NCBI GenBank assembly: GCA_029976695.1
Contig: JARQTN010000245.1
Span: 1 to 41,011 of the forward strand
Source of the DNA: Lewinellaceae bacterium
GTDB taxonomy: Bacteria > Bacteroidota > Bacteroidia > Chitinophagales > Saprospiraceae
Direction: 5' to 3'
Length of the DNA stretch: 41,011 nt
The translations under genes were made by a program, and so were the position numbers. The notes beneath the pieces are model-generated. The model searched no databases. It was not told where the DNA came from and saw nothing but the letters and a program-made list of their open reading frames with translations. Positions 6,936 to 9,900 of this stretch are shown here, in pieces. Positions within the stretch are counted from its first letter, which is position 1. Every line of letters begins with the position of its first letter.

Positions 6936-7025
6936 GGAAAAAGCGTTTACAGGTATTGCCTTGTATGAAAGGGATACATGAATCCGATCAGATTCGTATC
7001 ATTGTATGGAGAAAAACCTCGATTC

Positions 7026-7397
7026 ATGGAAACGAAGAGACAGAAACAAGTCGGGGAGTTGATTCGCCGCAACTTCAGTACAGTCCTCCAGCAGGAGGGG
7101 AGGTATATTTACGATCAAGCACTCGTTACCGTCACAAACGTAGTGATGTCTCCAGATCTCGGAATTGCGAAGATCTATTTGTCGATCTATAATACGGAGA
7201 ACAAGCAGGAGGTTTTGCTTTCCATGCTCGAAGACCATACACATCTGAAGCAGGCTCTGGGTCACAGGGTGCGGAAACATATCCGCCGGATCCCGGAACT
7301 CGAGTTTTTCATGGACGATACACTGGACGAGATGTATCGCCTGAACAACCTCTTTGACAAGCTCCATGCTGAAAACCAAATGGGGGAGGAGGAGTGA
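7026..7397 (+). CDS. rbfA: 30S ribosome-binding factor RbfA
   Basis: A 123-residue KH-fold protein that binds the 30S subunit late in assembly and helps process and fold 16S rRNA. Family features are the basic start METKRQKQVGELIRRNFSTVL, the strand ALVTVTNVVMSPDLGIAKIYLSIY, and the end LKQALGHRVRKHIRRIPELEFFMDDTLDEM. I chose ATG 7026, which gives the standard RbfA N-terminus; the ATG at 6978 would add 16 residues with no family match. It is divergent from recG and ends 1 nt before the convergent stop of the permease-repressor gene. Confidence 0.92.
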   Translation: METKRQKQVGELIRRNFSTVLQQEGRYIYDQALVTVTNVVMSPDLGIAKIYLSIYNTENKQEVLLSMLEDHTHLKQALGHRVRKHIRRIPELEFFMDDTLDEMYRLNNLFDKLHAENQMGEEE

Positions 7398-7398
7398 T

Positions 7399-8886
7399 TC
7401 AGTTCTTTTCAACACTGATCCGCTTCGCCAGTTGAACGGGGATCCTGAATTGTTTGCCTTCCGATTCGATCATCATTTCACGGTCATTCATTTCCCTGAA
7501 ATGGAATTGTGTGGCCGGGAGCAGCCCCATTTTCCAGAGTTCATGTGTGACTTCTTCTCCAGGCTGCCTTGCGGTGATTTGTGCTGTCTGGCCGACAACC
7601 AGGTCACTCAGGGCCATGGTCGGCTGAATGCTTTTTGAAGGGATCGGCGACCCGTGCGGGTCCATTCCGGGAAACCCGAGTTCCCTGTCCATTTCATCCA
7701 GCAGTTCCTCCGTCAGGAGATGTTCATATCTTTCAGCATCATCATGGATCTGTTCCTCTGTCAGCCCCATTTGCCTGACCAGGTAACTTTCCCAGAGCCG
7801 GTGGGCCCGGACGAGCCTGTTTGCCTTTTGTTTCCCTTTCCGTTCCAGGAAAATTTTTTCATCCTTGAAACTGACCAATCCTTCAGCTTCCAGAATACCC
7901 AGATGGCTTCTGAGTTTACGGACGGGTAGATGAACCTTTTCTGCCAGACCTTCAGGGGTCAGGTTGTTCCGGATGTCGAGTTTGAAGGCCTGTTTGAGGA
8001 TGTCTTCACGCAGGATCTTGATCCTGGTCCGCCTGCGCACCAGGTATTTGGACAACATTCCGTTTTTTGGCGCCACCAGGGCCATGAGGAGGTAGATCAG
8101 GGTTGCACAAACGGCCATGGCCGGTCCAGGTGTTGTGTCCAGCTGAATCGCAGCGTACAATCCCAGGACCGCCGATACCAGTCCGACAAGGCCCGATATC
8201 CAGAGTACGTTCTTCAGCTTGTCGGAAATGAGCAAAGCCGTCGATGCCGGGGTGATCAGCATTGCTACAACAAGTATGACACCCACCGTTTGAAGGGATG
8301 CGACAACGGTGAAAGACAGAAGCAACATCAGGAAATAGTGAATGGCATTCACCGAAATGCCCATGGTACGGGCGATCACTGGCTGGAATGTGCTGATGAA
8401 CAGGTACCTGTACAAGAGGATAATGCTCAGCACAACCGCAACTGCGACAATGGTTGTCATGACCAGGTCCTGGTCGGATACCCCGAGGATATTACCGAAT
8501 AAAAAATCCTTCAGGTCCAAATGGACACCCCCGGATTTACTGACCCGGGATATCCCGATCACACCGAGTGAGAACATGGCCGTGAACACGATCCCGATAG
8601 CAGCATCATTTTTGGTTTTGATGTTCTGCTGGATCCAGGTGATCCCGATGGCAGCAAGAAGCCCTGCAATAACCGCCCCCAGGAAAAAACCGAAACTGCT
8701 GTATCCGAATACAATAAATGCGACCACAACACCTGGCAGGATCGCATGGGACAGCGCATCCCCGATCATGGACATATTGCGCAATACAATGAATGCACCC
8801 AGGATGCCGCACATGATCCCAACCAGGCTTGATGCGATCAGTGCCCGGACCGCCCAAACTTCGTGCAGAATTTCATAGATGCTCAT
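7399..8886 (-). CDS. Metal ABC transporter permease fused to DtxR/MntR-type repressor and FeoA-like domain
   Basis: A 495-residue fusion of three parts. Residues 1-280 are an ABC-3 (ZnuB/MntB/TroC) inner-membrane permease with about eight spans and conserved stretches such as GILGAFIVLRNMSMIGDALSHAILPGV and LITPASTALLI. Residues about 288-355 form a winged helix. Residues 356-415 match the DtxR/MntR metal-binding and dimerisation domain, including H362 and the E385-x-x-E388-H389 triad in AERYEH, then GMDPHGSPIP. Glu rather than Cys at 385 resembles MntR more than DtxR. Residues about 423-495 look like a FeoA/SH3 domain. The known parallel is chlamydial YtgCR, whose repressor part is cleaved free. 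No ATPase or binding-protein gene is adjacent; ppx is upstream. It has its own -7 match and an upstream inverted repeat. Confidence 0.9.
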   Translation of the reverse strand: MSIYEILHEVWAVRALIASSLVGIMCGILGAFIVLRNMSMIGDALSHAILPGVVVAFIVFGYSSFGFFLGAVIAGLLAAIGITWIQQNIKTKNDAAIGIVFTAMFSLGVIGISRVSKSGGVHLDLKDFLFGNILGVSDQDLVMTTIVAVAVVLSIILLYRYLFISTFQPVIARTMGISVNAIHYFLMLLLSFTVVASLQTVGVILVVAMLITPASTALLISDKLKNVLWISGLVGLVSAVLGLYAAIQLDTTPGPAMAVCATLIYLLMALVAPKNGMLSKYLVRRRTRIKILREDILKQAFKLDIRNNLTPEGLAEKVHLPVRKLRSHLGILEAEGLVSFKDEKIFLERKGKQKANRLVRAHRLWESYLVRQMGLTEEQIHDDAERYEHLLTEELLDEMDRELGFPGMDPHGSPIPSKSIQPTMALSDLVVGQTAQITARQPGEEVTHELWKMGLLPATQFHFREMNDREMMIESEGKQFRIPVQLAKRISVEKN

Positions 8887-8917: not shown

Positions 8918-8925
8918 CAAATTTA
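8918..8925 (-). promoter_or_regulatory. Candidate -7 element of the permease-repressor gene
   Basis: TAAATTTG on the minus strand matches TAnnTTTG and lies 31 nt upstream of the ATG at 8886. No perfect -33 TTTG is seen at 17-21 nt; that position is taken by the inverted repeat at 8942-8961. Confidence 0.4.
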
Positions 8926-8941
8926 ACCAGATCAAATGAAT

Positions 8942-8961
8942 TTTTTAGATAGGCCTAAAAA
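8942..8961. promoter_or_regulatory. Inverted repeat, possible operator for the permease-repressor fusion
   Basis: TTTTTAG (8942-8948) and CTAAAAA (8955-8961) are perfect 7-bp inverted arms around ATAGGC. The repeat lies between the stop codon of ppx and the candidate -7 of the fusion gene, where the -33 box would sit. The central TAG/CTA spacing is reminiscent of DtxR/IdeR boxes. The arms are too AT-rich and lack a following T-run on the transcribed strand, so a terminator is less likely. Confidence 0.4.
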
Positions 8962-9900
8962 TTATTTTGATTCATCCAGGACCACTTTGATGATTCCCTC
9001 CTTCAGGGCATATTCCGAAACGATGATTTTATGGAAGGTGAACCGGGTAAGGATGAAGTTGATCAGGAAGAGCGCCACCACGATCAGGTCTGCACGGGTA
9101 TCCGGTATTTCCGGCATGGCGAGCCGTTCTTCATAATGGGTGTGCAGAACTTTTTTATAAAACGGGTAAAATGATGCCGGGGACACTTCAGAAACATGCG
9201 GATTCGGGTGATTTACGGCAAGTACTTCGCTGAGCACCTCAAATGTACCGCTCGATCCGACGAGATCCAGCAAGGGAATCGGACGGCACACCGAAATGAG
9301 GTCACCAAGAGTTTGTTCAAGCATGCGCTCTATCGTATCCAGGTCATCGACAGATATCGGGTCATGGCGGTGGTATTGATGAAACAGCAGGGCCACACCG
9401 ATCGGATAACTTTTTGAGAACAGGATCTTTTCATCCTGGTCACAGAGGATGAATTCAACGCTCCCCCCTCCGATGTCCATGATCAGGAAGGGGTTTTTGA
9501 TCTCGTGCAGGGACAGGATGATCCCGCTGGCTATGAGGGTGGCTTCGCGCTCACCGGAAATGACATCGATATGGATGCCGGTTTCGTCCTTGACTTCCCG
9601 GATGAGGTCCGGGGCGTTGAGGGCTGTCCTCAGGCATGCCGTGCCCGTCGCAATGATCCTGTTTACCTGGAATTGATCACATTTTTGCCGGTATTTTTTC
9701 ATTGTCTCAATGGCACGCCGGGATGCTGCCGGTGCGATGGTTTCAAGTCCTCCTTCACCAAGTTTGACATATACGCGTTCACGCACGATTTCTTTCCAGG
9801 AATGTGTGGCCGGTTCCAGGTCCACGATCAGCAAGTGAAAGGTGTTCGTGCCCAGGTCAATCACTGCCAGCCGGTCATTTATTGTCCGGTGATCATCCAT
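8962..9900 (-). CDS. ppx: Ppx/GppA-type exopolyphosphatase / pppGpp phosphatase
   Basis: A 312-residue protein of the ASKHA phosphatase superfamily that hydrolyses terminal phosphate from polyphosphate or converts pppGpp to ppGpp. Phosphate loop 1 is AVIDLGTNTFHLLIVD near residues 12-27; the second is LIMDIGGGSVEFILC near the middle. ATGTACLRTALN and ISGEREATLIASG are further family blocks. At about 310 residues it is the short, single-module form and lacks the C-terminal HD-like domain of E. coli Ppx. Choosing between Ppx and GppA activity is not possible from motifs. Its ATG overlaps the end of the upstream lipoprotein gene by 8 nt. The window also carries a RelA/SpoT homologue, but not next to it. 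Confidence 0.88.
   Translation of the reverse strand: MDDHRTINDRLAVIDLGTNTFHLLIVDLEPATHSWKEIVRERVYVKLGEGGLETIAPAASRRAIETMKKYRQKCDQFQVNRIIATGTACLRTALNAPDLIREVKDETGIHIDVISGEREATLIASGIILSLHEIKNPFLIMDIGGGSVEFILCDQDEKILFSKSYPIGVALLFHQYHRHDPISVDDLDTIERMLEQTLGDLISVCRPIPLLDLVGSSGTFEVLSEVLAVNHPNPHVSEVSPASFYPFYKKVLHTHYEERLAMPEIPDTRADLIVVALFLINFILTRFTFHKIIVSEYALKEGIIKVVLDESK

Follow-up and report, generated by a model that had tools for sequence, protein, structure and literature searches.

The window analysed here, a stretch of 41,011 nucleotides from a Lewinellaceae bacterium, carries a gene in which an ABC-3 metal permease runs on, in one chain, into a DtxR-like module. Comparison of the fused proteins of this lineage with its standalone MntR proteins makes it well supported that the fused proteins have lost sequence-specific reading of DNA, and it is quite probable that the fused module does not repress the transporter genes in a sequence-specific way. 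Our preferred reading, which we hold to be slightly better than an even bet, is that the DtxR-like half would act as a cytosolic metal sensor within the importer and feed back on uptake, with a standalone MntR controlling the genes. We go no further than this because we infer both the direction of the effect and the clamp described below. For the phylum the chances seem to us even that many permease-DtxR fusions of Bacteroidota, until now regarded as membrane-borne repressors, are metal valves, in which the sensor of a repressor was co-opted as an allosteric domain of an importer, its DNA-reading helix was lost, and a true MntR works alongside.

The open reading frame lies on the minus strand and extends for 495 aa from its ATG (507 codons of open frame), with no stop at the junction between the two halves. 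The sequence-only reading had described a permease, a repressor and a FeoA domain fused without a stop, and had named a stop and start at the junction as what would undo the description. The frame is open throughout, and the Pfam matches to ABC-3, Fe_dep_repr_C and FeoA bear the description out. An assembly artefact is ruled out by 59 further distinct fused proteins; the fusion is genuine, and not a one-off accident of assembly. The FeoA match lies only 0.1 bit above its Pfam threshold (23.1 bits versus a cut-off of 23.0), and no match to PF01325 (Fe_dep_repress) was found in the winged-helix part at E limits of 0.001 and 0.1. The named relatives of the fused protein, at 55-58% identity, are from Saprospiraceae/Saprospirales MAGs. 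Judged by its sequence, the gene product is the membrane subunit of a Mnt/Sit/Tro-type manganese (or iron) ABC importer, for which metal transport is predicted. The features are collected in Table 1.

Table 1. Features of the fused gene and its upstream region, in window coordinates
Feature	Position	Strand	Basis
Fused gene: ABC-3 permease, winged helix, Fe_dep_repr_C and FeoA, 495 aa	7399..8886	-	ORF and Pfam
ABC-3 permease domain, residues 13-270, the sole one of the genome	8077..8850	-	Pfam PF00950, E 1.8e-71
Helix 277-305 behind the last membrane span: basic linker and first helix of the winged helix, carrying D295	7972..8058	-	Predicted model
Winged-helix domain, residues about 293-348	7843..8010	-	Predicted fold; PF01325 match absent
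DNA-recognition helix position, residues 320-336, unconserved among fused proteins	7879..7929	-	Sequence comparison
Fe_dep_repr_C, metal binding and dimerisation, residues 350-416: H362, E366, H381, E385, E388, H389	7639..7839	-	Pfam, E 6.1e-25
FeoA / SH3-like domain, residues 424-494	7405..7617	-	Pfam, E 7.7e-5; strands in predicted model
Palindrome resembling an operator, TTTTTAGGCCTATCTAAAAA as read on the minus strand, 56-75 nt upstream of the ATG	8942..8961	.	Near-copy precedes mntR on C144
TAAATTTG, candidate -7 promoter element	8918..8925	-	By eye

The adjoining genes, an rbfA-like gene on the plus strand (6978-7397) and a Ppx/GppA-like gene on the minus strand (8962-9900), are neither of them transporter components. 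The sequence-only reading had noted that no ATPase or binding-protein gene is adjacent and had placed the rest of the transporter elsewhere; the partners were indeed located on another contig, C144. The genome (4.12 Mb in 263 contigs, 97% complete) contains one ABC-3 permease, which is the fused one, one ZnuA-type binding protein and three Fe_dep_repr_C proteins. The operon on C144 consists, in this order, of mntR (227 aa), the binding protein (334 aa; by eye, its C-terminus bears a membrane helix) and the ATPase (251 aa), and lacks a permease. From this gene content, its binding protein and ATPase are the predicted transporter partners of the fused permease. In a relative, G005 (locus L049), mntR, a fusion of binding protein and ATPase, and the fused permease (55% identity) are consecutive on one strand; in G481, G438 and G405 the transporter parts lie inside one cluster. 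The L049 fusion (L049:4705-6483) unites binding protein and ATPase in a chain of 592 aa, confirmed by Pfam, and a putative second chain of this type (L096:1501-3273, 590 aa) was recognised by length and position only. Because both domains sit in one chain, a chain of this type must cross the membrane between them.

In the order sample of 149 genomes, 15 carried a window-type fusion (8 covering the FeoA region and 7 not), 28 more carried a distant one, and one was partial. The survey of Bacteroidota that the sequence-only reading had suggested returned a fusion in 27 of the 395 genomes of the phylum sample, seven of them assignable to the window type or to A2, its sister group, and 20 distant. 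The collected set comprised 60 distinct fused proteins, the window protein and 59 others, with 23 in the window group and 37 in group B. A spurious 980-aa ORF (B_L063atp) was excluded from every count, and L052, which equals L012, was counted once. A search of plasmids gave 1438 matching records; among the 20 listed, six are haloarchaeal and have the permease and the regulator annotated as separate genes under one match.

All 18 window-group genomes have a single ABC-3 permease and a binding protein, with mntR beside the latter in 14. Two ABC-3 permeases are present in each of the 18 group-B genomes sampled from 48; in that group a second, unfused permease usually comes next, and the ATPase and binding protein lie upstream, as in the YtgCR-YtgD pattern. 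A standalone MntR occurs in 57 of the 66 genomes with a fusion (window group 18/18, group B 39/48). Five of the nine genomes (9/66) in which it was not found are 68-87% complete, and the other four, G076, G450, G340 and G356, are 93-100% complete. In the last three of these (loci L085, L086 and L088; 99-100% complete), the recognition helices of the fused proteins look non-canonical by eye.

A tree built from 94 permeases placed the window group together with the partner permeases and with two unfused permeases that occur singly; the fused permeases of group B lay elsewhere. The phylogeny placing all fused permeases in a single clade was rejected (AU test, p = 1.3e-8). The rejection leaves three histories undistinguished: two fusion events, a single ancient fusion followed by losses, and transfer of the module between permeases. 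The grouping of the fused DtxR modules as one clade, against the 16 standalone proteins and one membrane-anchored protein, was not rejected (p = 0.665; 132 columns, 77 rows).

The Fe_dep_repr_C domain with its metal ligands is found in all 60 fused proteins. H362, E366, H381, E388 and H389 are present in 60/60; position 385 is E in 53 and D in 7, and DPH is kept in 59. The residues listed in the sequence-only reading (H362, E385, E388, H389 and the stretch GMDPHGSPIP) are present as claimed. That reading had also equated D295 and K298 with D8 and E11 of B. subtilis MntR, and had taken K298 as a mark of a different metal site. We likewise take these residues to occupy those positions, and so the placement stands; the second part does not, as Lys is found at the K298 position in 15 of the 16 standalone MntR proteins from related genomes. 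Because Lys is usual in standalone MntR, K298 does not distinguish the fused protein, and an unusual metal site owing to K298 is ruled out. Position 295 is Asp in 23/23 window-group rows; in group B it is Asn in 33 and His in 4.

In other Bacteroidota, both half-permeases extend, after the same Pro motif, into tails roughly 95 residues long. Winged-helix-like C-terminal tails were seen on both half-permeases in the two-permease systems L090-L092 and L111-L128. In a profile comparison, the tails, with the linker removed, matched the fused winged helices at 93-98% probability, versus 82% and 32% for standalone MntR; in this comparison L115_508 was grouped in the wrong set, the motif rule truncated both L115_508 and L122_1131, and L125_2206, with its 47 residues, was omitted. 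Pfam found no Fe_dep_repr_C in any of the three half-permease tails scanned (3/3). Because half-permease tails without Fe_dep_repr_C exist, the winged helix of the permease can be retained even without the metal domain. Such tails would suit a role in assembly or stability, in which the DtxR-like half dimerises the permease, docks the ATPase or sets turnover and leaves the transport rate unaffected, as would a 743-aa chain (L044:535-2766) that joins ATPase, ABC-3 permease and Fe_dep_repr_C module. We consider this role unlikely, although no other alternative fares better. A purely structural part would not need the six ligand positions, which are kept in 60/60 (E385 as E or D); a structural ion could, however, account for them.

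Residues 281-495, for which the sequence-only reading had proposed a structure prediction, were run in AlphaFold together with six relatives. The predicted fold is DtxR-like, as expected there (mean pLDDT 84.8), and its best structural match by VIA-align is DR2539 (8pvz_B; Z 20.2 over 133 residues, 1.9 A, 32% identity). The module was modelled by itself because the full-length model (mean pLDDT 58.6) is too weak for use in its permease part. One continuous helix spans residues 277-305 of the full-length model, with a pLDDT of about 74-82 over 281-310 and low values in the permease. The basic motif RRRTRIK occupies residues 284-290, and the mean net charge of the linker in group A is +3.7; from this basic linker we infer that the sensor module lies on the cytosolic side. 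The interval from P273, which follows the last membrane span, to E294 measures 21 residues in 59/60 fused proteins and 20 in the remaining one, although the permeases belong to two branches. Because the length is fixed and a continuous helix is predicted, the linker looks more like a rigid coupling than a cleavage loop. A Met between positions 270 and 304 is present in 27/60 fused proteins at scattered positions; an internal start that might release the module is thus not conserved across them.

The standalone MntR proteins used for comparison (n = 16) comprise 14 from window-group genomes, the window genome included, and two from group-B genomes. At E values up to 0.1, PF01325 matched 2/60 fused proteins (best 0.038) versus 16/16 standalone ones (best 2.8e-21). 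All 60 fused proteins have at most two of the five canonical recognition-helix positions. Among standalone proteins the 17-residue recognition helix has a mean pairwise identity of 0.60, versus 0.29-0.33 in the fused groups; for the metal domain the values are 0.65 versus 0.59-0.68. Divergence was cancelled by pairing the 16 genomes that hold both proteins, which gives 92 pairs that share genomes and are thus non-independent. The helix is better preserved in the standalone protein in 91 of these pairs, with a tie in one; the paired means are 0.607 (standalone) versus 0.229 (fused) for the helix, and 0.651 versus 0.590 for the metal domain. In four close genome pairs, the 17 helix codons had about 44.5 nonsynonymous changes in the fused genes versus 8.8 in the standalone genes, and the 67 metal-domain codons had 47.8 versus 35.

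Against the view that DNA reading is lost, two of the four close pairs also show more synonymous change in the helix of the fused genes. The fused helix is still basic (mean net charge 2.7-3.4 versus 1.8 in standalone proteins), and the close genome pairs indicate that some purifying selection remains on the winged helix; with a basic helix and a constrained domain, the fused helix could therefore still bind DNA or membrane. As an argument against repression, the divergent helix is suggestive, the proven repressor YtgR having been set beside it only by published descriptions.

The same comparisons weigh on a model patterned on Chlamydia trachomatis. There, the permease-DtxR fusion YtgCR of the YtgABCD iron importer is described in PMC7755916 and PMC5599777 as being cleaved, with the released module repressing in an iron-dependent manner. 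By this precedent, the C-terminal half of the window protein would be cut near the basic linker to give a soluble, metal-dependent repressor of the transporter genes, and the DtxR-like fold, the kept ligands, the basic helix and the basic linker would all suit such a product. We nevertheless find it improbable. The recognition helix is unconserved in the fused proteins while standalone MntR retains it, that MntR is encoded in every window-group genome, and the linker has a fixed length and is predicted to be helical.

The palindrome upstream of the fused gene was compared with that of mntR. TTTTTAG-N6-CTAAAAA occurs without mismatch at two sites only in the genome, one upstream of the fused gene and the other upstream of mntR (C144:42327-42346). 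Allowing one mismatch gives 3 sites per strand genome-wide versus 2 for the reversed control, and because this count hardly exceeds the control, the weight of the palindrome evidence lies in location. In 14 unlinked genomes, the core TTTAG-N6-CTAAA was sought in the 250 nt upstream of the fused gene: it scored 10/10 in seven, 9 in two and 8 in two, and was absent in the other three (best match below 8). Upstream of mntR it scored 10/10 in nine of the 14, 9 in two and lower in three. Shuffling the same stretch gave full cores in 0-1 of 100 shuffles and 9-of-10 matches in 3-6. None of the four linked genomes reaches a core score of 9 upstream of the fused gene (0/4), where the stretch contains coding sequence. 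Between palindrome and gene, TAAATTTG fits TAnnTTTG, the -7 element of Bacteroidota promoters, and it is a candidate on that ground.

That an uncleaved permease keeps its winged helix membrane-bound and contacts DNA from that place, coupling transport state with transcription, seems very doubtful: repression by full-length YtgC is discussed as a possibility, like that by membrane-anchored LacI, in PMC5599777, and the fused helix stays basic, but recognition-helix conservation is lost among the fused proteins, and the palindrome core of the window group is alike across genomes whose fused helices differ. The suggestion of the sequence-only reading that a repressor, tethered or released, links transport to gene control did not hold up against the unconserved helix, the MntR in 18/18 genomes and the palindrome before both transporter halves.

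In the sensor reading, both transcription units would most likely be co-repressed at high metal by the MntR of C144, the presumed binder of the palindrome. In the fused protein, the site for Mn2+ or Fe2+ would be formed by the dimerisation domain (E385, E388, H389) on one side and D295 on the other, and through the D295 helix the bound metal may link that domain with the last membrane span. A homodimeric importer is expected, since the genome has no ABC-3 permease besides this one. Its two sensor modules would meet on the two-fold axis, where metal may clamp them and so slow uptake. The two-module clamp cannot hold as stated in group B, because a second, unfused permease is present there. The effect would amount to a presumed trans-inhibition as in MetNI and ModABC, with the sensor placed on the permease. 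In those importers, according to PMC10710835, substrate in the cytosol is bound by a C-terminal domain, which pairs with its counterpart across the two-fold axis and blocks the cycle. The likeness concerns the proposed working only: the folds differ, and their regulatory domain is on the ATPase, whereas here it is on the permease. Should the sensor reading be true, one ancestral sensor fold would serve two layers of control, DNA and transporter; a transcription-factor fold would have been co-opted for transporter control, and a manganese/iron importer would join the small set of ABC importers known to have a feedback domain.

The fusion architecture is already known, since permease-repressor fusions from 11 phyla are reported, and suggested to act like Chlamydia YtgR, in a review (PMC5599777). 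The parallel with YtgCR drawn in the sequence-only reading holds for the architecture, an ABC-3 permease and then a DtxR-like module with conserved ligands in one chain, belonging to a four-component metal importer. Compared by published description, the window protein differs from YtgCR in its FeoA domain, its single ABC-3 permease, the location of its partners on another contig, the presence of a standalone MntR and the unconserved recognition helix. Unlike in YtgCR-YtgD, there is no second, unfused permease in the window genome or in any of the 18 window-group genomes. Residues 288-420 share their fold and metal ligands with DR2539, SloR, ScaR and IdeR of the MntR/DtxR family; unlike those repressors, the fused protein is joined to a membrane protein and has neither a PF01325 match nor a canonical recognition helix. 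In the open-licence literature we found no earlier proposal that a DtxR module attached to a permease exerts feedback control. Two things are new here: a variant that bears FeoA, has a single permease and coexists with a separate MntR, the two genes sharing a palindrome, and the evidence that speaks against the reading of DNA. Many Bacteroidota fusions probably do not work like YtgR, the alternative being control of an ABC importer by a metal-sensing domain located on its permease, and caution is advised in annotating such fused proteins as regulators.

A one-mismatch copy of the palindrome lies on contig C151 (L131:1501-1520; C151:12565-12584), a short way upstream of one member of a tandem pair of similar ORFs (247 and 255 aa) whose products look exported by eye; at the one-mismatch level, this copy is likely due to chance.

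The same genome encodes a second membrane-bound DtxR-type protein on contig C154 (L014:3868-7145). It has 349 aa, with an Fe_dep_repr_C and two FeoA domains by Pfam and an N-terminal hydrophobic stretch by eye, and its gene is directly upstream of FeoB. The latter spans two ORFs, a GTPase part of 261 aa and a membrane part of 478 aa, through either a true split or an assembly frameshift. PgMntR of Porphyromonas gingivalis is described in PMC4805248 as a DtxR protein with two FeoA domains that is encoded in an operon with a metal transporter and binds promoter DNA in vitro. Like PgMntR, the window protein is a Bacteroidota DtxR-type protein with FeoA; unlike it, PgMntR is a separate soluble protein, and it is nearer to the membrane-anchored DtxR-FeoA-FeoA protein of C154 than to the fusion.
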